Positions 1,899-15,512 of a stretch of 64,000 nt of DNA are shown in pieces (the first letter of the stretch is position 1; the number at the start of each line of letters is the position of its first letter). Location of the stretch: the NCBI RefSeq assembly GCF_007004665.1, contig NZ_ML660060.1, forward strand, positions 124,001 to 188,000. The letters are read 5' to 3'. The position numbers were made by a program, and so were the translations under genes. The notes under the pieces are model-generated. The model was given only the letters and a program-made list of their open reading frames with translations, was not told the DNA's origin and did no database searches. Source of the stretch: Denitrobaculum tricleocarpae. GTDB lineage: Bacteria > Pseudomonadota > Alphaproteobacteria > Kiloniellales > Kiloniellaceae.

Positions 1899-2522
1899 CT
1901 ACCAGCTCGGCATAAGTTCAACACCCAGCCCGGTCATCTCGCTCTTGGCGGCGGCCAGAGAACCCTCCAGATCGATCGCCCGGCAGGCGGATTCGATCAC
2001 GGTCGCCTCGAAGCCCTGCTTGCGCGCGTCCACCGCCGAGAAGCGCACGCAGAAATCCGTGGCCAGCCCGACGCAGAAGACCCGCTGAAACCCCCGCTCG
2101 CGCAGATAGCCCGCGAGCCCGGTCGGGGTCTTCTGATCGTTCTCGAAAAAGGCCGAGTAGGAATCGATCTCCGTCCGATAGCCCTTGCGGATCACCATCT
2201 CCGCCTGCGGCAGCTCCAGCTCGTCATGCAGTTCCGCGCCCCGGGTGCCCTGCACGCAATGATCCGGCCAGAGCGTCTGCGCGCCGTAAGGCATGGTTAC
2301 CTGCGAAAAGGGCGCAGCCCCGTCATGGCTGGAGGCAAAGGAAGAATGCCCCGCCGGATGCCAATCCTGGGTGATCACCACATGCGCAAAGTCCCGCGCG
2401 ATCCGATTGATCTCCGGCACCACCGCATCGCCATCCGTCACCGCAAGCCCGCCGCCGGGACAGAAGTCGTACTGCACGTCGATGACAAGAAGGAGATCGG
2501 TTTCAAGAGGCGTGATGGGCAT
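1899..2522 (-). CDS. pncA: Nicotinamidase/pyrazinamidase
   Basis: A 207-residue isochorismatase-fold amidohydrolase that converts nicotinamide to nicotinic acid in NAD salvage. The catalytic triad of the PncA family is visible as D15 (VIDVQYDF), K113 (VIRKGY) and C158 (GLATDFCV). The metal-binding set D53, H55 and H59 is in TQDWHPAGH. Length is normal for the family. It is the first gene of a short minus-strand run with the Phd-type antitoxin behind it. The Shine-Dalgarno before the ATG is weak. I see nothing that departs from the family. Confidence 0.95.
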   Translation of the reverse strand: MPITPLETDLLLVIDVQYDFCPGGGLAVTDGDAVVPEINRIARDFAHVVITQDWHPAGHSSFASSHDGAAPFSQVTMPYGAQTLWPDHCVQGTRGAELHDELELPQAEMVIRKGYRTEIDSYSAFFENDQKTPTGLAGYLRERGFQRVFCVGLATDFCVRFSAVDARKQGFEATVIESACRAIDLEGSLAAAKSEMTGLGVELMPSW

Positions 2523-2914: not shown

Positions 2915-3604
2915 CTATTCAGGTTTGGATGGCCATTCGATGTTTCCATCTTTGTCGAAGAACTTGGAGAGTTTCTCTGCTTCCTCTTGAAAGCTTGTAC
3001 CTGGAAACCATCGAGCCACAGTACTAGGTGCAACTGCGAAGTGTTGTGCTATCCCTCGGATGGTAGGTTCTGTCCCTTGAGCCTTCATTTGTGCTGCTAG
3101 CCATATCGCGGCCTGACGTTTTTCGTGAGCGTCGATTGTTTGCTGATATTGAGGGTTTGGGCCTCCTAGCCGTTCTCGAATAGGCACGATAAGGTCACGA
3201 TGAATTATTAACTCATTGTTCCAGCTGAGAGAATCTAACATTGCGCAGATGAGCCAGTCGATCAGTTTATCGGGGACAGCAATACCCCTGCGCACTAAAT
3301 GAGTTTCTCCATCGCGCGTTAGTTCCTTAGCCTGAACAATTTTTTCCATCAGCTGCAAGCTTAGAGAACTAACTGCATCCTCATCTGCATCAAAAATTGA
3401 GGCCACAGTTTGTGGATCAAACCCGAACCGCTCAAGTTCATCTTCCATAGCGAATAAAGCATCGATCCCTCCGAATACTGATATTTCTATTTCAGCATCG
3501 GGGTCTGAGCGCCTTAGGTGTAGGTAATTCTCGATGGTAGGATTATTTTTGAACTCAACAGTGGGTTCGTTGTAACCACCGCCTGGCCTTTCGGCGAATT
3601 CCAT
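2915..3604 (-). CDS. Unknown protein with C-terminal helix-turn-helix, AT-rich
   Basis: A 229-residue protein counted from the ATG at 3604, chosen because GAGGAG stands 8 bases upstream; an in-frame start 33 bases earlier has no such site. I do not recognise the family. The middle is acidic and helical (residues about 40-90), with no signal peptide or membrane segment. Near the C-terminus the stretch around IRGIAQHFAVAPSTVARW has the spacing of a helix-turn-helix (IAxxxxVAPSTVARWF), so DNA binding is plausible. Base composition is well below that of the neighbouring genes, which suggests recent transfer. No integrase or transposase is adjacent. It could be a phage- or plasmid-derived regulator. 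Function unknown. Confidence 0.65.
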   Translation of the reverse strand: MEFAERPGGGYNEPTVEFKNNPTIENYLHLRRSDPDAEIEISVFGGIDALFAMEDELERFGFDPQTVASIFDADEDAVSSLSLQLMEKIVQAKELTRDGETHLVRRGIAVPDKLIDWLICAMLDSLSWNNELIIHRDLIVPIRERLGGPNPQYQQTIDAHEKRQAAIWLAAQMKAQGTEPTIRGIAQHFAVAPSTVARWFPGTSFQEEAEKLSKFFDKDGNIEWPSKPE

Positions 3605-3739
3605 TGGTAGGACTCCTCTCGCAGTTGAACAGATCAACGCAATGGTCCGAGTGTTGGATTGGTCCTGTTAGCAGTTTAGTCGATTAGCATTGCTGTCAAA
3701 ACTCCGATTTTGCGATTAGCCAACCATTGAGCGAAACGA

Positions 3740-5524
3740 TTATTTGTCCTGATTACGCCCCAACATCTCCGCCATCCGCTCCCGCATCAGAAACTTCTGC
3801 GGTTTGCCCGTCACCGTCATCGGCAGCTCTTCCACGAACCTGATATGCCGGGGCACCTTGTAGTGGGCGATCTGGCCCTTACAGAAGGCGGTGATGTCTT
3901 CGGTGGTCGCATCGGCCCCCGGCTTTAGGACGATCCAGGCGCAGAGTTCTTCGCCGTACTTGGGATCGGGGATGCCGAAGACCTGGACGTCCTGGACTTT
4001 GGGGTGGCGGTGCAGGAAGTCTTCGACCTCGCGGGGATAGATGTTTTCGCCGCCGCGGATGACCATGTCCTTCACCCGCCCGACAATGGCGCAGTAGCCC
4101 TCGCGGTCCAGGGTCGCCAGATCGCCGCTGTGCATCCAGCCCGCCGGGTCGATGGACTCTTTGGTGCGGGCGTCGTCGTTCCAGTAGCCGCGCATGACCG
4201 AATAGCCGCGGGTGCAGAGTTCGCCTTCCTGGCCGACCGGGACCGTGCGGCCCTCGGCGTCGACGATCTTCACTTCGAGCTGGGGGTGGATGCGTCCGAC
4301 GGTGGAGACGCGGCGGTCGAGCGGGTCGTCGCAGTGGCTCTGGAAGGAGACCGGGCTGGTCTCAGTCATGCCGTAGGCGATGGTGACCTCGCGCATATGC
4401 ATGTCGGCGATGACGCGCTTCATGACGTCGATGGGGCAGGGCGCGCCGGCCATGATGCCGGTCCTGAGCGACGAGAGGTCGTGGTTGCGGAACGCGGGAT
4501 GATCCAGCATGGCGACGAACATGGTCGGCACGCCGTAGAAGGCGGTGCAGCGCTCGCGCGCGACGGCTTTGAGCGCCGTCTCGGCCTCGAAGGCCTCGCT
4601 GGGGAAGACCATGGCCGCGCCCTGGGTCGCGCAGCCCAGGCTGCCCATGACCATGCCGAAGCAGTGATAGAGCGGGACCGGAATGGCGAGGCGGTCGTCG
4701 GCGGTCAGGCGCATGCGCTCCACCACGAAACGCGCGTTGTTGACGATGTTGAAATGGGTCAGGGTCGCGCCCTTGGGCGAACCGGTGGTGCCGCTGGTGA
4801 ACTGGATGTTGATGGGATCGTCCGGGTCCAGCTTCGCGGTGATGTCGTCCAGGCGCAGGCGCTGCGCCGGTCCGGCCAGCGACAGCAGCTCGTCGAAGCG
4901 CAGCATGCCGGGGATGGGTTCGGGACTGGTGACAATGATCGAGCGCAGGAAGGGCAGTTTGCTTGACGACAGACGCCCTGCTTCGGCCTCGGCCAGCTCC
5001 GGCGCGATGGAGGTGATCATCTCGACATAGTTAGTCGACTTGAAAGCCTCGGCGATGATCAGCGCCTTGCAGGCCACCTTGTTGAGAACGTATTCCAGCT
5101 CGGCGCTGCGGTAGGCCGGATTGACCGTCACCAGGACCGCGCCGATGCGCGCGGTGGCGAACTGGGTCAGCAGCCACTCCGGGCGGTTGGGCGACCAGAT
5201 CCCGACCCGGTCGCCCGGTTCGATGCCGATGGCCAGCAGGCCCGCTGCTAGGTCGTCGACCTTGCGCGCCAGTTCCGAATAGCTCCAGCGGACCCCATGC
5301 GCGGGAAAAACCGCCGCGTCGCGCGCGCCGTATTGAAGGGCGGTGTCGGCCAGCACCTGGGGCACGGTCTTGCGCCAGAGCGGTTGGCGGCGGTCGCCCG
5401 TGACGTAGGAGAGGCCGTCATGCGGTTTCAGGCTTTCGGAATCTTCGCTCCGGCTCTCCGCTGCACTGTCCGACAGGGAGGTAATCGGCTGCGAAAGATC
5501 GCCGATGGTGAAGCCGTAGTTCAT
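3740..5524 (-). CDS. AMP-forming acyl-CoA synthetase
   Basis: A 594-residue ANL-family ligase that activates a carboxylic acid to its CoA thioester through an acyl-AMP. The P-loop [12 protein letters not shown], the A5-like motif YGMTETSP, the hinge region [18 protein letters not shown] and the catalytic lysine in VTGKPQK are all present. Its ATG lies 2 bases after the stop of the ATPase-amidase gene, so the two are translationally linked and it is the last gene of the amide operon. That position suggests it activates the acid released by the amidase. The family resembles medium/long-chain FadD-like or methylmercaptopropionyl-CoA ligases. The substrate cannot be read from sequence. Confidence 0.92.
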
Positions 5525-5526
5525 GA

Positions 5527-7992
5527 CTACATGCTCTTCCAGTCGCCGGCCTGCTCGAAGGCATGTGCGGCGCGGTAGATGGTGGACTCGTCGTAATGCT
5601 TGCCGATCAACTGCAGGCCGATGGGCAGGCCCTCGCTCATCCCGCAGGGGATCGACATGGCCGGATGGCCCGTGGCGTCGAAGGGGGCGGTGTTGGAGAT
5701 CATCTCGAAGGCGCGCTGGATATAGAGCGAGAGCGGCGCGTCCGGCCCGGGCAGCGGCGGGGCCTTCAGGGGCAGGGTCGGCATCATCAGCAGGTCGTAA
5801 CGCTGCAGCACCTGATCGTAGTCCTGTTTCAGGCGGCGGCTGAGATTCTGCGCCTTGGCATAGTAGTGGCCGCGATGGTGCTTGAGCATGTACTCGCCGA
5901 TGAACATGGAGATCTTCAGGCTCGGTGAGAGCTCGTCGGCGCGGCTGCGCCAGTTGGCGTGATGATCCAGCAGGCTGGTCATGTAGAGGCCTTCCCAGCC
6001 GGTCGCAAAGCCGTTGCCGTGCATCATGATATCGGTCAGGCCTTCCAGCGCGATGGGCGTCCAGATCGCTGTGCCGTCCAGATGGATGGGCACGGAGATC
6101 TCCTCAACCATCGCGCCGAGCCGCCGGAAGGTCTCGGCGGCCTGCCGTACCTTAGCGTCCACGTCGGCCTCGCTGTTGGGCAGGCCGAAGCCTTCGCGTA
6201 CCAGACCGATCCGAAGACCGGCGACGCCGCGCCCGAGCGCCGTCAGATACTTGTCGATCTTCGGCGCGTACTGGCGCGGGTCCAGGCCGTCTTCACCCGC
6301 CAGCACTTCCAGCAGCAGGGCGTTGTCCTCCACGTTGGTGGTCATGGGGCCGGTGTGATCGATGGTCGGCTCGATGGGCATGATGCCGGTGTAGGGCACC
6401 AGGCCGTGGGTCGGCTTCATACCATAGCCGCCGCAGAAGGAGGCGGGGATTCGGATGGAGCCGCCCTGATCGCCGCCAATGGCCATCTCCACCTCGCCCA
6501 GTCCGACCAGTGCGCCGGACCCGGAGGAAGAGCCGCCCGCCGTATGGCCCAGCTTGTAGGGATTGTGTACCGGGCCAGTAGCGTTGGTGTGGCTGCCGCC
6601 CGAAAGGCAGAAGTACTCGCAATGGGCCTTGCCGACGATGGTGCCGCCCGCATCCAGAATGCGGGTGACGATGGTGGCGTCGATATCGGGCGTGTAGCCC
6701 TCCAGCGTCGAGGCGCCGTTCATCATGGGCACACCCGCCAGACAGACGTTATCTTTCAGGGCAACGCGCTTGCCTTCCAGGGGACCCGAAGGTGCGCCCC
6801 GGATATCGGTCTTGATGTACCAGGCATTGAGCGGGTTTTCCTCCTGGTTCGGGCGGCGGCCCGGCGTGCGCGGATACTTCACCTGGGGCAGGTTGTCCGG
6901 CAGGGCATCGACCCGGTCATAGGCCTGGAGAGTGCCCTCCATGATGGTCATGTAATCCATGATCTCGCGGTCGCTCATGGACATGCCGAGCCCGCCGACG
7001 ACTCCGCGCATCTGATCCAGTGTGGGGCGTCGAACGGTCATGTAGGCCTCCCTGAGTGGCGCCGGTGGGGTGCTGCCGGGCATGGGGTGGATGGGCGATG
7101 GTTTTGCCGTCGTTGCGTTTGGTTTCGTGAAGGAGAGGTGTTCGCTGGCGGCCGGCTGAATGGAGGACGGGACGGCGGGCGCAGTGTTTGCGGGGGCGGC
7201 TACTCTGCCACTGGTCTGCCGTGCCGCGCCGAAGCCGACGAACTCCTCGATCAGCGCCGGATTGACCGCCGCGTCGATGGGCACCTCGCCGGTGATGGCG
7301 CCGCGTTCCAGGATCATCAGGCGGCTGGAGACCGCGCTGAGGAATTCCAGGTTCTGCTCCACAACCAGGATGGTCAGATTGGTCTCGCGCCGGATGGTGT
7401 TGAGAGTCTCTTCGATCTCTTCGATGATCGAAGGCTGGATGCCTTCGGTCGGTTCGTCGAGCAGCATCATCAGCGGTTCGGCGATCAGGCAGCGCGCGAG
7501 CGCCAGCAACTGCTGCTCACCGCCGGAGAGCGCGCCGCCCTGGCGGTCCAGCAGGCGGGTCAGGCGCGGGAACCATCCCAGCAGGCGCTCCACGGCTTCG
7601 TCGGCGGTGCCGCCGGTCTCCGCCGGCCAGGCGAAGCGCAGGTTGTCGAGGACGCTGAGCTGGCTGAAGATCCCCCGGCCCTGGGGCACGTAGCCCAGCC
7701 CGGCCCGGGCGCGCAGGTGCGGGCTGCTCTTGGTGATGTCCTCGCCGTCGAAGATCACCGCGCCGCCGGTGGCGGGCAGGAAGCCCATGATCGTTTTCAG
7801 CAGGGTCGACTTACCCATGCCGTTGTGGCCGAGCAGGCCGACCGCTTCGCCCTCGTGCACCGTCAGGCTGACGCCGCGCAGCACCGGAATGTCGCCGTAG
7901 CCGCCCAGCAGGTTTTTGACTTCCAACAGAAGTGGGGCTTTGTCGTTGCCAGTCTGATCCTTTTCCGGGGCTGTGGAGGTGATCGCGTTCAT
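5527..7992 (-). CDS. Fusion: branched-chain-amino-acid/urea-type ABC ATPase joined to amidase
   Basis: One uninterrupted 821-codon frame holds two complete proteins. Residues 1-255 are a LivF/UrtE-type ABC ATPase: Walker [10 protein letters not shown] (55-63), signature LSGGEQQ (155-161), Walker B LLDEPT (177-182). Residues 256-317 are a linker rich in P, A, S and T. Residues 318-821 are an amidase-signature enzyme with the full Ser-cisSer-Lys triad: K413 in ALKDNV, S488 in [10 protein letters not shown]512 in [11 protein letters not shown]. LivF/UrtE proteins normally end near residue 235-245 and amidases stand alone, so the join is unusual. The amidase methionine (base 7041) has a strong internal AGGGAGG 5 bases ahead of it, so a free amidase may also be made. 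The start overlaps the upstream ATPase stop by 4 bases. It probably couples import of an amide to its hydrolysis. Confidence 0.93.
7041..7053 (-). promoter_or_regulatory. Internal ribosome binding site ahead of the amidase half
   Basis: On the minus strand AGGGAGG (7047-7053) is followed after 5 bases by an in-frame ATG at 7041 (codon 318 of the fusion). This is among the best Shine-Dalgarno matches in the operon. It marks either the ancestral start of a separate amidase gene or a working internal start that yields amidase without the ATPase. Confidence 0.6.
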
Positions 7993-8708
7993 GCCCGTTT
8001 CCCCAGATAGACATCGCGCACCGCCGGGTCGGCCATGACCGCCTCGACCGGCGCTTCGGTCAGCACCCGGCCCTGGTGAAAAACCGTCACGGTCTGAGCG
8101 ATGCTGCGCACGAAGTGCATGTCGTGTTCCACGATGACCAGGGCCGCATCCCGGTTCAGTTCGTGGATCACTTCGATCATGCGCTCGACCTCTTCCCCGG
8201 TCAGGCCCGCCGCCGGCTCGTCCAGCAGCACCAGGGCCGGCCGTCCGGCCATGACGATGCCCAGCTCCACCAGTTGCCGCTTGCCGTGGGCCAGGGTCGC
8301 GACCTCGTCGGTGGCGATATCCTGCAGCTCGAGCCGTTCCAGGACTTCCTCAGTTGTGCGATTGGCTTCGCAGCTGCTTTGCGCCTGCCGGGCCGAGAGC
8401 CAGATGTTTTCGTGGGCCGTGAGGGTGTTCATCACGCTGGGCACCTGGGTCTTGATGCCGACACCGCGCCGCGCGATGGCGTGGGGATGTATGCCGGTAC
8501 AGTCTTCGCCCTGCAGGTAGATGCTGCCTTCGCTGGGCTTGAGCAGGCCGGTCAGGCACTTGAAGAAAGTGCTCTTGCCTGCGCCGTTGGGGCCGATCAG
8601 GCAGCGCAGTTCGTCGTTTTCCAGGCGGAAATCCACGTTCTCGAGAGCGGTGACGCCGCCGAAACGCATGGTGACGGCACGGGTTTCCAGGATCGCGTCA
8701 GCGCGCAT
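7989..8708 (-). CDS. ABC transporter ATPase, LivG/UrtD-like
   Basis: A 239-residue ATPase of the branched-chain amino acid/urea importer class. Walker A is GPNGAGKST, followed by the Q-loop region GIKTQVPSV, a short signature segment around ATLAHGKRQ, Walker B VLLDEPAAG and the switch histidine in IVEHDMHFV. The signature shows AHGKRQ in place of LSGGQ, a change I associate with the UrtD group. Its stop overlaps the fusion start by 4 bases (ATGA), and its own start overlaps the permease gene by 11 bases, so the four transporter genes are translationally coupled. It acts as the second nucleotide-binding subunit of the importer. The substrate is probably urea, an amide or an amino acid. Confidence 0.92.
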   Translation of the reverse strand: MRADAILETRAVTMRFGGVTALENVDFRLENDELRCLIGPNGAGKSTFFKCLTGLLKPSEGSIYLQGEDCTGIHPHAIARRGVGIKTQVPSVMNTLTAHENIWLSARQAQSSCEANRTTEEVLERLELQDIATDEVATLAHGKRQLVELGIVMAGRPALVLLDEPAAGLTGEEVERMIEVIHELNRDAALVIVEHDMHFVRSIAQTVTVFHQGRVLTEAPVEAVMADPAVRDVYLGKRA

Positions 8709-9732
8709 GACGGAGCCTCCGCCGGGCGTTGCGTCCGCCGCGTTTTCCGGCTCCTGCCGCCGTCGCCCTGCGCCGGCGTTTCTTGAAGAAGGGGGCTAGC
8801 GTCGGCACGATCCCGCGCGGCAGGAAGAGAACCGTGACCACCAGGATGCTGCCCAGAACGAAGAGATTGTTCACCAGGGTCTGCTGGCCGAGGAAGAATT
8901 TCAGCGCGCCCAAAGCAAAGGCGCCGACGATGGGACCCAAAAGGCTGCCCGCGCCGCCAACGATGACCCAGATGATGATCTCCGCGGACTGGCTGAGACT
9001 GAAGAGGGCGGGGGTGACGATTTCGGCCCAGTTGGCAAAGAGCATACCCGACAGACCCGCGAGCATGCCGCCGATGGCGAAGGCGAGGGTTTTGACCAAG
9101 CGCACGTCATAGCCAACCAGTTCGGCCCGCAGTTCGTTTTCCCGGATGCCGACCAGGATCCGTCCGAAGGGCGCGGTCAGGAGCCAGCGCAGGCCCAGAT
9201 ACGCGAGCAGCAGAATCAGGGCGCAGAAGTAATAGAGATACTCGTTGATCAGATACTCGCTGGAGTCCCAGGGCAGGGTCAGGGTGTCGAAGCCGGGAAT
9301 GCCGTTGAAGCCGCCGAGGCGGGCGTCGCCGATCTTATAGGCGCTGCCCGCGGTGGAGTTCATGAACTTGAAGAGAATGAGAGTCACGACGAGTGTGACT
9401 ACGGCGAGATAGACATCGCTCAGGCGGCCATAAAACAGCATAGCGCCCAGGGCCGCGGCAAAGAGCGCCGGAATGATCAATGAGACCAGGGCCGCGATCC
9501 AGGGATCGGCGAAGTTGATCGACGCGATGGCAAAGCCGTAAGCGCCGAGACCGAAGAAGGCCGCCTGACCGAAACAGAGAATACCGCCGAAGCCCCAGAT
9601 GAAGCCCAGGCTGAGCGCGAGCAAGCCGTAGATGGTCAAGACTGTCAGGGTGTAGATGTCGTCGAAAAGAAAGGGCGCGGCCACCAGAAGTGCGAGCCCG
9701 ACAGCGGCGGAGAAGGCGGTTTCGCGTAGCAT
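8698..9732 (-). CDS. ABC transporter permease, LivM/UrtC-like
   Basis: A 344-residue inner-membrane permease with about nine to ten hydrophobic segments starting at residue 5. The conserved cytoplasmic loop that docks the ATPase is visible around GIRENELRAELVGYDV and the following LAFAIGGMLAGLSG. The C-terminus is basic (KKRRRRATAAG). It pairs with the LivH-like permease just upstream, 6 bases away. Length agrees with LivM/UrtC proteins. Specificity cannot be told from the permease alone. The amidase in the same operon points to amides or urea. Confidence 0.92.
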   Translation of the reverse strand: MLRETAFSAAVGLALLVAAPFLFDDIYTLTVLTIYGLLALSLGFIWGFGGILCFGQAAFFGLGAYGFAIASINFADPWIAALVSLIIPALFAAALGAMLFYGRLSDVYLAVVTLVVTLILFKFMNSTAGSAYKIGDARLGGFNGIPGFDTLTLPWDSSEYLINEYLYYFCALILLLAYLGLRWLLTAPFGRILVGIRENELRAELVGYDVRLVKTLAFAIGGMLAGLSGMLFANWAEIVTPALFSLSQSAEIIIWVIVGGAGSLLGPIVGAFALGALKFFLGQQTLVNNLFVLGSILVVTVLFLPRGIVPTLAPFFKKRRRRATAAGAGKRGGRNARRRLRHAR

Positions 9733-9738
9733 CGCCCG

Positions 9739-10608
9739 TTACACCTTGTCTTTGAGAAACCGGCCGGTGATGCCGGTTGGCAGGAGGCGCAGGAGCACCA
9801 CAGCGGCGACCAGCAGCGCGATCTCGCCGACCACCGGGGTTGCGAGAAAGGTGAAGGTCTGCGACACGAAACCGAAGAGGCCGGCGCTGGCAAGCGTCCC
9901 TGAAATCACCGCCGTCCCGCCGGAGATCACGGTGATGAAGGCCTTGGCGATGTAGGCGGCACCCGCCGCCGGATTGATCCCGACCAGCGGCGCCATGACG
10001 CCGCCCGCGAGCCCGGCGAGCGCGGAGCCTGCGATGAAGGTGAACATATAGACGCGTTTGGTGTTATAGCCGAAGGCCTGCGCCATTTCCGGGTTCTGCA
10101 TGGCGCCGCGCGCGACCAGACCGGCCCGGGTTGTTTTCAGGACCAGGTAGACGCCGCCGATCACGAGGGCCGCGATGACGATGACAAAGAGATTGTAGCC
10201 GCTGACCTGGTACTGGCCGACGGTGAAGCCGGAAATGGGCGTCGTGATGCCGGTCGTGGTGTTGCCGAAAATCATACTGAAGCCGCCGATCATGGCGAGG
10301 CTGAGTCCCCAGGTGGCCAGCATGGTGTTGATCAAGCGGCCGTAGAGAAAGCGCACGATGAAATGTTCGACCAGAAAACCGAAAAGGGCCGCCGCCAGCG
10401 GGGCGGCGACCAGGATCGAAAGATAGATGTTGAGACCGGCCTGGTTCGACATGATGGCCGCATAGCCGCCCAGGGTCAGAAATTCACCATGGGCAAGATT
10501 GATGACGCGCATCATGCCGAAGATCACCGCGAGCCCGGCGCTGATCAATACCAGCACCGCGATCGCGTATAGGATCTCCATGACGACGACTGCAGAAAAA
10601 TCCATCAA
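9739..10608 (-). CDS. ABC transporter permease, LivH/UrtB-like
   Basis: A 289-residue polytopic membrane protein. The family hallmark INLAHGEFLTLGGYAA is present at about residues 35-50, and the ATPase-docking region NPEMAQAFGYNTKRVY lies at about 180-195. LivH/UrtB proteins form the heterodimeric channel with LivM/UrtC. The gene follows the binding-protein gene after a 115-base gap and precedes the second permease by 6 bases. Length is typical for LivH and shorter than the long UrtB variant that carries an N-terminal extension. Confidence 0.92.
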   Translation of the reverse strand: MMDFSAVVVMEILYAIAVLVLISAGLAVIFGMMRVINLAHGEFLTLGGYAAIMSNQAGLNIYLSILVAAPLAAALFGFLVEHFIVRFLYGRLINTMLATWGLSLAMIGGFSMIFGNTTTGITTPISGFTVGQYQVSGYNLFVIVIAALVIGGVYLVLKTTRAGLVARGAMQNPEMAQAFGYNTKRVYMFTFIAGSALAGLAGGVMAPLVGINPAAGAAYIAKAFITVISGGTAVISGTLASAGLFGFVSQTFTFLATPVVGEIALLVAAVVLLRLLPTGITGRFLKDKV

Positions 10609-10723
10609 GGACGCTCCGGACCGGTCGTGTTTTGAACTCTAGCCCTCGCGCCTAACCCCGTAACAGGCAAAGACGTCATAAAGGACACGAATTTCAGTTC
10701 CACCACACCAGGCACCTCAAAGA

Positions 10724-11944
10724 TCAGATATCGATCTCGTACTGTGTGGTGTCGTTGGGATTTTCTTCCAGATTGCAGACCGTCTGCGTATCGACCGGCG
10801 GCCGCTGCAGGAAGGTCTCTTGCACAGCCATCTTCTGATCTTTCACCTCGATCAGATGGACGTCGAAGGTCGCATGATGGGTTTTGGGATCGATCGAGAT
10901 CCGGCCGGTCGGGCCGTCGAAGGCCGCGCCGGCCTCCAGAGCCGCAATCACGTCATCGCGTGCAACGGAACCGGCTTTGCGTGCGCCCTCCGCCCAGAGG
11001 TGAACGCCCTGATAGGTCGCGACCGCAAGTTCGTGCACATCGTCTGTCGCGCCGTAGCGCTCTGTCCAGCGCTCCAGGAAAGCCTGGTTGGCGGGTGTCT
11101 CGAGTTCCTTGGAGAAGGAGTAGGCCAGCATGATGCCGTCACCCTCTTCCTTGGTCAGGACCACATGCTCGTTGCCCGCACCCATGGTGGTCGAGGCCAT
11201 GGGGATCTTCTTGTTCATACCGGCCGCCGCCCACTGCCGGTAAAAGGACAGATGTGCGCCGCCCACCAGAACGGACATGATGGAGTCCGGGTTCGTGTCC
11301 TGGATTTTCGTGATGGTGGAACCGAAGTCGGCAACGTCGAGCGGGAAGAAATCGACCTGAACGACTTCGCCGCCGGCTTGCTTGGCGTAGTGCTGGATCC
11401 ACTTCGCGGTGATCTGTCCGTAATTGTAGTCGGCGGCCAGAACATAGACCTTCTTGCCCCACTTCTCGATCGCGGCGGGCACCAGAACTTCGGCCTGCTG
11501 CGCCGGGGTGATGCCGGTGCAGAAGATGTTACGGTCGCAGACGCCGCCCTCGTACTGCACGTTGTAGAAGTAGAGCACCTTGTTTTTGCGCAGGGTCGGC
11601 CGGATCGCCTCGCGGGATGCCGAGAGGATGCCGCCGTGCACCACATCCACCTTGTCCTGCCGGGCCAGGCGCTGGCCAAACTGCGTGTAGAGCGCCATAT
11701 CAGACTGGGTGTCGTAGGCAATCTTCTCGACCATGCGCCCCGCAATGCCGCCATCGCTGTTGATCTCATCGATCGCCATGTCGACGGCTTTATCCATGGG
11801 CTTACCGTAGAGGTCGAAGATGCCGGAGGTGTCGAGAATAGAGCCAAGTTTGATGGTGTCTTCAGCACGCACAATGGCCGGCGCCGCAATAAGCGCCGTG
11901 GCGGCGGCGGCACCTTTAAGAACTTTCCTGCGATTTACAGACAT
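10724..11944 (-). CDS. Periplasmic substrate-binding protein, UrtA/AmiC-like
   Basis: A 406-residue type I periplasmic binding protein. The N-terminus carries a twin-arginine-like signal (NRRKVLKG, then a hydrophobic A/L/I stretch ending near APAIVRA at residue 27), so export by Tat is likely. The mature part begins with the family pattern IKLGSILDTSG and continues with the INSDGGIAGR motif. UrtA- and AmiC-like proteins bind urea or short-chain amides. It is the first gene of the transporter block, followed 115 bases later by the permeases. Its relation to the amidase downstream supports an amide or urea-like ligand. Confidence 0.9.
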   Translation of the reverse strand: MSVNRRKVLKGAAAATALIAAPAIVRAEDTIKLGSILDTSGIFDLYGKPMDKAVDMAIDEINSDGGIAGRMVEKIAYDTQSDMALYTQFGQRLARQDKVDVVHGGILSASREAIRPTLRKNKVLYFYNVQYEGGVCDRNIFCTGITPAQQAEVLVPAAIEKWGKKVYVLAADYNYGQITAKWIQHYAKQAGGEVVQVDFFPLDVADFGSTITKIQDTNPDSIMSVLVGGAHLSFYRQWAAAGMNKKIPMASTTMGAGNEHVVLTKEEGDGIMLAYSFSKELETPANQAFLERWTERYGATDDVHELAVATYQGVHLWAEGARKAGSVARDDVIAALEAGAAFDGPTGRISIDPKTHHATFDVHLIEVKDQKMAVQETFLQRPPVDTQTVCNLEENPNDTTQYEIDI

Positions 11945-11996: not shown

Positions 11997-13574
11997 TTAG
12001 CCGGCTTTGTCCGCTGTTTTAGAAGGGTCGCTCTCCCTATTGCCAAGGTCAAGGTTGACCCCGATGCTTTCCCCGAGTTTCTGCATGGCGGGGAGCTGGA
12101 GCGCGAGATTGAGAATCCCGTCCACCGCGCCTGACATGGGGGCGCCGGAGGAATTGCCGCCGGTTCCACCCGCTTGACCCAGGCCCGAGACCTGGTTGAT
12201 CCGGATGGAGTCGATCTTCTCGAGGGGTTTCGCCATGCGTTCCGCGATTTCAGGCAGCTTGTCGACCTTGTGGGTGTCGAGTTTCGCGCGCAGGAGCTCG
12301 CTGCTGGCGATGTTTTCCGCTTCGATCATGGCGGCTTTGCCTTCGGCTTCCGCCTGCATCAGCTTAAGGGTCGCTTCGGCCCGGCGTTCGGTTGCGCTGG
12401 CTTCCGCCGCGGCGCTCTCCTGCAGGGTGGCATTGGCGCTGCGGGTTTGTTCGCCCGAGACCTCGCTTTCCTGCTTTGCCCGGATCATCGCGGTTGCGCG
12501 TTCGCGCTCTGCCGCAAGGCGGTCTTTTTCCAGTTGAACTTCTTCCTGCGCCCGGACGATTTCACCGCGCTTCATTTCGGTTTCGGCCTGCGCGGACATT
12601 TCCTCGGTGCGTTTGCGGGCCAGGGCGATCTGACTCTCGAGCTTGGCGGTCTCCGCCGCAAGCAAGGCCGTGACCTCGTTTTCCCGCAAGGAGCGGTCGC
12701 GCTCGATCTCCGCGACCTTCACACCGCGTTCCCGTTCGATCCTTGCGCGGGCGGCGGTTTCCTCTGCCTGTTGCCGGGTCAATTCGGTTTCCGCAGAAGA
12801 CTTGGCTTTCAGTTTTTCGATGGTCAGGGTCTGGGCGATCTGGGCTTGTTGCTGTTCGCGGTCCAGTTCCAGTTTCCGCTTCAGAGAATCGAGTTGCGTG
12901 TGGCGCACGGCGACATCCGCGTCGGCCTCAATCTCGGCGCGCTTTTTTTTGTTAGCGGAGATAACTTCCGCCAGGCGGCGCATGCCGACGGCATTGAAAG
13001 CATTGTTGTCGTCCAGCGCGCTGAAGGGTGCCTGGTCGAGCCGCACCAGAGACGCCGATTCGAGGTACAGTCCGTTCTGCGCTAAATTCTCCTTCAGGGT
13101 CTCGGCGACTTTCGTCACGAAGACACCGCGGTTTTCGTGCAGTTCATCCATGGTTTGCGTTGCGACTACGGCCTGCATGGCATCGATGAAACGGCCGCCG
13201 AAAAGGGTCTTCAGGTTGTCCGGGTTCAGCGCCCGGGAACCGATGGCCTGGGCCGCGGTTGCGACGCCCTCTGGTGTCGGCTGGACGCGCAGATAAAATT
13301 CCATTTCCAGATCAAGGCGGAGACGGTCTTCCGACATCATCGACTTTTCGCCGGTGCGCAGCACTTCGAGACGCATGGTGCGCATGTCGATCTGGTCGGC
13401 CCGGTGCAGGAAAGGCAGGACCAGCGCGCCGCCGTCCATGACCACCTTCTGTCCGCCGGCGCCGGTCCGGATCAGAGCCTTCTCCCGCGTGGTTTTGCGA
13501 TAGAATCTCTGCAGGAAGGCAATCGCGACTGCCAGGACGACGACGAGGACAATGAGAGTTGCGAGTAGGTCCAC
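11997..13574 (-). CDS. Flotillin-like SPFH membrane protein
   Basis: A 525-residue protein that starts at a GTG preceded by GAGGGGAG. Residues 1-25 form one membrane anchor, about 30-200 an SPFH/band-7 domain, and about 205-430 a long charged coiled coil rich in E, A, R and K with EAEG-like repeats (MQAEAEGKAAMIEAE), as in flotillins such as YqiK. The tail is glycine-rich followed by a short hydrophobic segment (GILNLALQLPAMQKLG). Flotillins scaffold membrane microdomains and other complexes. Its place between the cytosolic AmiC-like sensor gene and the transporter suggests it may organise this importer. That role is inference from position. Confidence 0.85.
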   Translation of the reverse strand: MDLLATLIVLVVVLAVAIAFLQRFYRKTTREKALIRTGAGGQKVVMDGGALVLPFLHRADQIDMRTMRLEVLRTGEKSMMSEDRLRLDLEMEFYLRVQPTPEGVATAAQAIGSRALNPDNLKTLFGGRFIDAMQAVVATQTMDELHENRGVFVTKVAETLKENLAQNGLYLESASLVRLDQAPFSALDDNNAFNAVGMRRLAEVISANKKKRAEIEADADVAVRHTQLDSLKRKLELDREQQQAQIAQTLTIEKLKAKSSAETELTRQQAEETAARARIERERGVKVAEIERDRSLRENEVTALLAAETAKLESQIALARKRTEEMSAQAETEMKRGEIVRAQEEVQLEKDRLAAERERATAMIRAKQESEVSGEQTRSANATLQESAAAEASATERRAEATLKLMQAEAEGKAAMIEAENIASSELLRAKLDTHKVDKLPEIAERMAKPLEKIDSIRINQVSGLGQAGGTGGNSSGAPMSGAVDGILNLALQLPAMQKLGESIGVNLDLGNRESDPSKTADKAG

Positions 13575-13812: not shown

Positions 13813-14868
13813 CTAGTCGTCCGACAGTTGCTCAACAAGTTGAAAGGCGTGACCTTCGGCTTCCGCGAGATACATGGGCATCCGCGAATGGCCGGATTCC
13901 TGAAACACAGCTCCGCGCGGTCCTTTCACCGGCAGCGCTGTTCGAGGCCGAGACCAATCCGATGCTTGAGTCGCATCGGAGAGGGCCTGCAGGAAATAGA
14001 GACCTTCGTAGAGCGATTCGCCGATGGAGTTGAGCATCGGCCCGCGCTCGCCGAAGCGCGTGTGATAGCGTTCCCGGAAGGCACCATTGGCGGCCGTATC
14101 GAGAGACGAGAAGTATCCTGACGCCGCGAAGAGTCCGTCGGTGGCATTGGCGCCAATGCCCAACAGCGTATTCTCTTCGACGGCGCAGGAGAAACGAATG
14201 ACCTTGCTAGACATAGGACTGCGGGCGAAGTCCCGGTTGAAGCGGATGCAGTCGTCTCCCACCAGTGAGAGCAGCAAGCCGTCAGGCCGGGCACGCCGTA
14301 TGCGTTCCATGACGTGCTCGAAGTTCCGGGTTCCGAAGGGCAGGTAGGCCTGCCCCACGATGCCACGCTCTCCGCTTCGGAAATGACGATGCACGGCGGC
14401 GTGAGATGCGCGCGGCCAAATGTAATCGTTGCCGAGCAGGAACCAGCGCTTCAGGCGGAAGCGTTCCGACAGCCAGTCAAGACCGGGCAGTAGCTGCTGG
14501 CCCGGGGTTTCCCCGATGCAAAATACGCCCTGTCCCGCAGGGCCGCCCTCGAAAAGCGGTGTATAGACGTAGGGAAGACTCCCCGCGATCCGGTCTGCGA
14601 TCGCCTCACGGACATCGCTGGTGTGCATACCGACCACGGCATCGATCATGCCGCTCTCGCGCAAGGCCTCGGCCTCCCGCGCCACCAGCTCGGGGTCGTT
14701 ACCGGCATTCACGATGGTCAGATTGATCGGGCGACCGCCGATGCCGCCGTCCGCGTTTAATTCCTCGGCGGCAAGTTCAGCGCAGGCTCGGCAGGAAGGT
14801 CCCCAGATTCCGGCGGCGCCGCTGGTGGGGATGAATAGACCGACCCGATAGGATTCGCTCGTTTTCAA
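13813..14868 (-). CDS. AmiC/UrtA-family ligand sensor without signal peptide
   Basis: A 351-residue type I binding-protein fold. It starts directly with ESYRVGLFIPTSGAAGIWG and has no signal peptide or membrane segment, so it should stay in the cytoplasm. Family features include the ELNADGGIGGR motif near residue 40 and the FCIGETPGQQ segment near 115. Cytosolic proteins of this fold act as amide sensors, the model being AmiC, which releases the antiterminator AmiR when amide binds. No AmiR-type ANTAR partner is visible nearby, but a MarR regulator gene is divergent from it. It heads the minus-strand amide operon. A sensor role is likely; the output partner is unknown. Confidence 0.82.
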   Translation of the reverse strand: MKTSESYRVGLFIPTSGAAGIWGPSCRACAELAAEELNADGGIGGRPINLTIVNAGNDPELVAREAEALRESGMIDAVVGMHTSDVREAIADRIAGSLPYVYTPLFEGGPAGQGVFCIGETPGQQLLPGLDWLSERFRLKRWFLLGNDYIWPRASHAAVHRHFRSGERGIVGQAYLPFGTRNFEHVMERIRRARPDGLLLSLVGDDCIRFNRDFARSPMSSKVIRFSCAVEENTLLGIGANATDGLFAASGYFSSLDTAANGAFRERYHTRFGERGPMLNSIGESLYEGLYFLQALSDATQASDWSRPRTALPVKGPRGAVFQESGHSRMPMYLAEAEGHAFQLVEQLSDD

Positions 14869-14943: not shown

Positions 14944-15089
14944 TGCTATAACACGCCGGATTCCAAGGGCCCCGCACAACGGGTTGATTTTACGGCAAAT
15001 GTTGCGGGTAACGCTTGATTGCCCTTCCAATTTTATTCCGGACGGGCTATCTCCTGACAGAAGCAGGTTTTGTTATTTTGGGATCTTAC

Positions 15090-15512
15090 ATGTCAGCCGA
15101 CTCTCTGACGAATTCTCTGCCTTACCTTCTGGCCCGGGCACATCGCTCGGTGCATGGCGAACTGGATGCCGCTTTGCGGCAGGAAGAACTTCCGGTCGAG
15201 CACTGGCGGGTGTTGCGGGCTCTGGAGAGCGGCGAAGGTCTGACCATGTCGGAGCTGTCGCAGATTGTCTTGATGACGATGTCCGCCCTGTCGAAGGTCG
15301 TCGACCGCATGACGACGCGATCCCTGGTGCACCGAAAGCAGGACATGGGCGATCAGCGCCGGGTTCTGGTTTACATCTCCGATTTCGGTCTTGAGCTTCT
15401 CGCCCGTTGCGAGAGCCACCTCTCGCCTGTCCAGGCTTCTTTGGAGAGCCGCCTGGATCCCGACGATGCGGCACAGCTCAACGGATTGCTGCGTAAGCTG
15501 AACGGCCAGTAG
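15090..15512 (+). CDS. MarR-family transcriptional regulator
   Basis: A 140-residue winged-helix regulator, start placed at the ATG giving MSADSLTNSLPYLLARAHRS because the residues before it in the longer frame do not look like family sequence. The recognition part is MSELSQIVLMTMSALSKVVD and the wing is KQDMGDQRRVLVYISDFG, with the DxRxxxV pattern of MarR proteins. It is divergent from the amide operon across 221 bases. MarR proteins usually repress their own and the adjacent promoter until a small carboxylate or aromatic binds, so control of the amide operon is the simplest guess. Confidence 0.85.
   Translation: MSADSLTNSLPYLLARAHRSVHGELDAALRQEELPVEHWRVLRALESGEGLTMSELSQIVLMTMSALSKVVDRMTTRSLVHRKQDMGDQRRVLVYISDFGLELLARCESHLSPVQASLESRLDPDDAAQLNGLLRKLNGQ

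Follow-up and report, generated by a model that had tools for sequence, protein, structure and literature searches.

An importer ATPase fused in frame to an amidase, with a conserved, probable internal start site, in a putative amide-uptake operon of Denitrobaculum tricleocarpae

A LivF/UrtE-type importer ATPase and a complete amidase are joined by a disordered linker in one gene of Denitrobaculum tricleocarpae, within the 64,000-nucleotide stretch analyzed here (hereafter the window; contig NZ_ML660060.1, positions 124,001 to 188,000, forward strand). The same fusion is conserved in other proteobacteria, likely has a single evolutionary origin, and retains at its junction a ribosome-binding site and start codon from which free amidase is probably also translated. 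The features of the fused gene and its operon are given in Table 1.

Table 1. Features of the fused gene and neighboring genes in the window (positions are those of the window)
Feature	Position	Strand	Basis or remark
Fused ATPase-linker-amidase gene	5527..7992 (stop codon included)	-	821 aa
ATPase part, LivF/UrtE type, residues 1-255	7228..7992	-	
Linker, residues 256-317 (62 aa)	7042..7227	-	Disordered, Pro/Ala/Ser-rich, hypervariable
Shine-Dalgarno-like AGGGAGG	7047..7053	-	Read from sequence; ends 5 nt before internal ATG
Internal ATG, residue 318, ancestral amidase start codon	7039..7041	-	Kept in relatives; NF005565 begins here
Amidase part, residues 318-821	5527..7041	-	NF005565/PRK07235 profile, structure match 3a1k
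Second ATPase, LivG/UrtD type, separate gene	7989..8708	-	Pfam/NCBIfam profiles
Permease 2, LivM/UrtC type	8698..9732	-	Pfam/NCBIfam profiles
Permease 1, LivH/UrtB type	9739..10608	-	Pfam/NCBIfam profiles
Substrate-binding protein, urea-/AmiC-like, Tat-like signal	10724..11944	-	Profiles
Flotillin	11997..13574	-	Pfam Band_7 and Flot
Acyl-CoA ligase, directly downstream of fusion	3740..5524	-	NF009233, 869.3 bits, cut-off 832
AmiC-like binding protein, no evident signal peptide	13813..14868	-	Profile match
MarR-type regulator, divergent	15015..15512	+	Pfam

Read from position 7992 to 5527, the gene is a single frame of 821 codons with an ATG start and zero internal stops, which bears out the continuous frame of a preliminary description made from the sequence alone and adds the strand, absent from that description; its first codon shares bases with the stop codon of the ATPase gene preceding it. 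Pfam placed ABC_tran on residues 38–182 (E = 1e-32) and Amidase on residues 393–805 (E = 4.3e-93). As previously described, the ATPase is full and of LivF/UrtE type with Walker A (K61), signature (LSGGEQQ), and Walker B (D179/E180) intact; the Q-loop (Q104) is present as well. Residues 318–820 matched NCBIfam NF005565/PRK07235 over its full length, starting exactly at residue 318 (807.8 bits; cut-off, 545), and the closest solved structures were those of the Rhodococcus N-771 amidase, 3a1k (E = 1.1e-143) and 3a1i (E = 2.8e-143). K413, S488, and S512, which we take to be the catalytic Ser-cisSer-Lys triad, were kept in 87/87 fused homologues, in keeping with the full amidase proposed at the outset, and the amidase half is complete and apparently active; these residues and the ATPase motif residues were identical in 86 or 87 of the 87, where one alignment row was gapped at Walker A and the Q-loop and another (L086) began after that ATPase part. 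An AlphaFold model of the fused protein had both parts folded (mean pLDDT 77.5, pTM 0.58), and pLDDT was below 50 over residues 253–314, matching the 62-residue disordered-looking linker described earlier. No single solved chain covering both halves was found among the 50 best structure-search matches. Within the genus, dN/dS was 0.07–0.10 for the ATPase and 0.03–0.09 for the amidase.

A search for homologues with both domains, as the preliminary description had advised, yielded 136 loci after removal of those with identical amidase DNA: 87 fused, 22 with adjacent but separate genes, 25 without an adjoining ATPase gene, and 2 cut by contig ends. Because the search query was the fusion itself, this sample is biased to fused genes; 80 of the loci were the best 80 of 162 matches to the whole fusion, and among the first 84 loci (3 of them repeats) 82 were fused in one frame, 1 was separate (L076), and 1 was cut. 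In a less biased sample of the class, 44 of 385 genomes contained the amidase, and the 30 matches read comprised 10 fused, 11 adjacent, 8 without ATPase, and 1 cut; in a sample of the phylum, 21 of 398 genomes had a match, and among the loci read the fusion occurred only in the window's own genome. Across the 23 genomes of the window's family, the amidase (E up to 1e-100) was confined to the four members of the genus, all of which carry the fusion, the three others in the same single frame and at 88–93% identity. Further carriers include alpha- and betaproteobacteria, among them isolates of Sulfitobacter, Variovorax, and Hydrogenophaga, gammaproteobacterial MAGs, and one MAG labeled SAR324; the matching contigs also include uncultured Kiloniellaceae and Pelagibius sp. 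RefSeq protein WP_071974000.1, encoded on a complete plasmid, is such a fusion labeled simply “amidase.” The preliminary description had advised checking relatives for two genes with a stop codon at the junction; the 22 adjacent loci have separate genes, and the 87 fused loci do not. Nor do all relatives have separate genes, the outcome that was to count against a genuine fusion; instead, there is a fused clade with unfused outgroups in the same gene order.

The linker varied from 25 to 121 residues across the fused loci (median, 58), was always in frame, and was composed of 22% Ala, 16% Pro, and 11% Ser. No in-frame stop occurred in any of the 87 linkers, whereas the other two frames contained stops in 41 and 35 of them. 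Linker dN/dS within the genus was 0.24–0.46 in five of six pairs (the sixth was saturated), and the linker evolved faster than both domains. The absence of in-frame stops and a dN/dS below 1, in what would otherwise be an intergenic region, indicate that the linker reading frame is under selection.

When 135 amidases were placed in a quick maximum-likelihood tree (L153, which duplicated the place of L109, was left out), the 87 fused sequences and the two cut rows formed one clade (SH-aLRT 96), and fused versus adjacent needs a single change; one origin of the fusion is therefore likely on the amidase phylogeny. The ATPase tree (108 sequences, without L086, which was too short) needs two changes; however, a single clade of fused ATPases was not rejected (p-AU = 0.589): with the 86 fused rows constrained to group, the likelihood exceeded that from the unconstrained search by 2.2. 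Independent fusions elsewhere were rejected on inspection of six more amidases whose open frames were long, none of which had an in-frame ATPase. The unfused adjacent relatives share the gene order and have ATPase-amidase gaps of 7–369 nt. In the nearest of them by amidase identity (L076, 72%), the ATPase stop lies 18 nt before the amidase start, an arrangement that may be close to the pre-fusion state.

The junction also carries a signal that the preliminary description had not mentioned. An internal ATG was present in all 87 fused loci, whereas 94 of the other 5114 linker codons were ATG; in 16 loci it was shifted one or two codons upstream and was still ATG, which argues for conservation of a start codon and not of a structural methionine. 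A four-base Shine-Dalgarno (SD) core preceded it in 80 of 87 loci (7 lacked the core), against a background of 409/4418 other linker positions and 446/2598 other in-frame ATGs. The mean pairing energy with the 16S tail was −6.6 kcal/mol at the internal start, whereas the 2598 other in-frame ATGs averaged −3.0 and 4331 positions within linkers averaged −1.8; true starts of unfused amidases gave −8.3 (22) and −7.2 (17). Synonymous shuffling weakened the mean SD energy to −4.4, and 75 of 87 loci were stronger than their own shuffles, although the shuffle is weak at any single locus (median P = 0.21) and 69 fused genes contain another in-frame ATG that scores as well, with the remaining 18 standing alone (2.8 expected). 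The SD motif fell in all three codon phases (33/27/27 loci); what is conserved is thus the nucleotide sequence, not the amino acids it encodes. Predicted mRNA structure was weaker at the internal start (−7.0) than at other ATGs (−11.5; 83/87 loci above their own median) or in the linker (−12.4; 67/87 loci). A promoter for a separate amidase transcript was looked for with a sigma-70-type scan: neither the ATPase nor the linker had a promoter-like site on the minus strand, and the region contained 2 sites, where 2.0 would be expected.

The start codon and SD are thus conserved beyond background, as in genes with two products, across 87 loci that share ancestry and are accordingly not independent for these statistics. 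Lying beside a hypervariable linker, they make it probable that the fused gene yields both the fusion and free amidase, the 504-aa amidase part being predicted as a protein of its own. With the internal ribosome-binding site and start codon kept, the products of ~88 and ~54 kDa, which the preliminary description had set against one another, would not be alternatives; both are probably made from one gene.

The minus-strand operon runs from an AmiC-like protein through flotillin, binding protein, two permeases, ATPase, and fusion to an acyl-CoA ligase, with the MarR gene divergent. The flotillin, likewise missing from the preliminary description, exceeded the Pfam cut-offs for both domains (Band_7, 55.7 against 23.6 bits; Flot, 105.5 against 27 bits). 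Neighbors were counted by tBLASTn with 12 window proteins in loci with enough flanking sequence. Among distinct fused operons other than the window's own, 60 of 61 had flotillin; among distinct operons with adjacent, unfused genes, 0 of 22 had it, its absence from the unfused contig L156 being weaker evidence, as that contig has only ∼1.5 kb ahead of the binding-protein gene. The sole fused locus without flotillin (L071) has runs of N and a binding protein reduced to its last 44 residues and may be a broken assembly. The ligase was present in 56 of 61 fused operons and 1 of 22 unfused operons, in the latter at 31% identity. Other flotillin-like genes elsewhere in the genus genomes were only 35–42% identical; the operon flotillin is thus a distinct copy. 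The MarR gene was found in 32 of 61 fused operons and the AmiC-like gene in 31, counting matches of at least 35% identity and not those of 22–29%, which are cross-matches to the binding protein. The AmiC-like protein, whose gene is divergent from the MarR gene, is a probable amide sensor and has no obvious AmiR partner.

Several other genes of the surroundings are recorded here. A gene at window positions 1899–2522 (minus strand), which we take to be of the nicotinamidase/isochorismatase family, lies near the operon; relatives of it occur, within the sequence retrieved, in 6 of 51 fused loci, and in L028 one comes directly after the fusion. The 240-aa protein at 2915–3637 (minus strand) had zero Pfam or NCBIfam matches. 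In locus L075, a second amidase (10095–11567), 58% identical to the query amidase, begins just where the fused gene stops and takes the place of the ligase. Outside the fusion operon, nitrile hydratase is encoded in 4/4 and aldoxime dehydratase in 3/4 genus genomes; in the window's own genome (contig C7, L189), aldoxime dehydratase lies ∼2.5 kb from another Liv-type transporter.

The reading we favor, with moderate confidence, is a Liv/Urt-type amide importer to which amidase is tethered, with additional amidase made in free form from the internal start and with the ligase and flotillin acting at the membrane. The operon would encode an ABC importer for an amide-like compound, and the gene of its second ATPase would have fused once with the neighboring amidase gene. 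Any ribosome starting at the first ATG must, as the frame shows, make a transporter ATPase to which the amidase is flexibly tethered, at the importer's cytoplasmic exit, and the former amidase ribosome-binding site and ATG, kept inside the frame, would allow the same mRNA to yield free amidase as well. Substrate captured by the binding protein would pass through the permeases to an amidase that the ATPase keeps at the cytoplasmic face. Amidases of this family dimerize, and the free form may pair with the tethered form, which would place more enzyme than transporter at the membrane. As it enters, the amide would be hydrolyzed, giving ammonia plus an acid that the downstream ligase, from the gene content, would convert to acyl-CoA; the co-inherited flotillin probably gathers importers in a membrane patch, and the AmiC-like and MarR proteins probably sense the amide. 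Coupling of import to hydrolysis at the membrane, as the preliminary description had inferred, would fit the presence of flotillin and ligase genes in the same operons. Possible, if doubtful, is a fuller metabolon in which flotillin-gathered importers, tethered and free amidase, and ligase carry out import, hydrolysis, and activation at one spot, with the two start sites setting the transporter-to-enzyme ratio. Flotillin and ligase could instead be merely co-inherited with the clade and not act together, and, as the same transporter also occurs in unfused operons, the pathway does not need the fusion.

Other explanations differ in how much of the fused gene they take to be functional. That the fusion is incidental, with stop loss merely coupling translation and the long protein cut in the linker or working as if unlinked, accords with the disorder, variable length, and fast evolution of the linker and with the same gene order in unfused operons; it is nonetheless unlikely, as no lineage among the 87 fused sequences has reacquired a stop or gone out of frame in linkers of 25–121 codons, and linker dN/dS is below 1. 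It is decidedly unlikely that the gene makes nothing but the 821-aa protein, its internal SD and ATG being a relic or reflecting a residue preference before the amidase. Frequent R, E, and G residues just before the Met would give SD-like DNA in any case; however, the loss of SD strength on synonymous shuffling, the spread over three phases, an ATG that moves in 16 loci and is never lost, and the weaker mRNA structure all speak against this. The amidase part might also be a sensor that gates the ATPase by amide or acid level, as the importer ATPases MalK and MetN have regulatory C-terminal domains and the amidase sits at that usual place; we regard this as very improbable, because the catalytic residues are invariably kept, a long loose linker fits tethering better than gating, and the separate AmiC-like protein looks like a sensor, although the amidase could sense in addition. 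The chance of an assembly or sequencing artifact is negligible: the fused loci come from isolates, complete plasmids (including that of WP_071974000.1), and MAGs, the same fusion in three other genomes of the genus is neither chance nor local error, and a sequencing error or linker stop, which the preliminary description had allowed for, was looked for in the relatives and rejected, along with a chance frame, on their conserved single frame and stop-free linkers.

The tethered-amidase reading matters because substrate handover from importer to enzyme is hard to test, contacts of this kind usually being transient, whereas here evolution has supplied a covalent link, kept across proteobacterial classes and with unfused sister operons as natural controls. 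The system also offers a genetic handle on the role of operon-borne flotillins and a clear case of a gene fusion apparently keeping an old start site for two products.

The importer and the enzyme belong to known families; their joined, two-start, flotillin-linked arrangement is new, and no paper describing a fused importer ATPase-amidase system was found by title or abstract in the open-licence literature. The amidase part resembles RHamidase of Rhodococcus sp. N-771 (PDB 3a1k/3a1i, PRK07235) over its whole length (∼46% identity; TM-score 0.84 over the target) and with the same triad spacing, but RHamidase is free-standing whereas the window amidase is joined to an ATPase by a linker. UrtABCDE and Liv transporters have the same five-part layout and gave the best profile matches for the window subunits; however, none of the four Urt-type subunits reached its curated NCBIfam cut-off, nor did the fused ATPase (UrtA 235.0/492.75, UrtB 197.5/250.3, UrtC 189.9/296.2, UrtD 238.8/304.1, UrtE 253.3/285.8); scores with the archaeal-type models were likewise too low, and the binding protein is also AmiC-like. 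A urea transporter was rejected on these equivalog cut-offs. For Cas8b/Cas11b, SpaO, and two-polypeptide phage endolysins, a short C-terminal form, made from an in-frame internal start, is described as joining the full-length form (PMC11899642; PMC13059759; PMC9430671); their roles are in CRISPR, secretion, and lysis, whereas the window gene encodes a transporter ATPase and a metabolic enzyme whose two forms are predicted. The Isd heme importer of S. aureus is, by its abstract, an ABC importer dependent on flotillin-organized membrane microdomains (PMC10147376), but it has neither fusion nor enzyme and, as far as that abstract tells, its flotillin lies outside the transporter operon. An aldoxime-nitrile-amidase cluster is described on a Pantoea plasmid (PMC3137637). 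Further parallels are the unfused plasmid amide operons of Agrobacterium, Aureimonas, Pleomorphomonas, and Tistrella, which share the order binding protein-permease-permease-ATPase-ATPase-amidase and have nitrile hydratase or aldoxime dehydratase near two of the four annotated operons, but which differ from the window operon in keeping ATPase and amidase as two genes, with a gap of ∼80–180 nt, and in having neither flotillin nor ligase.
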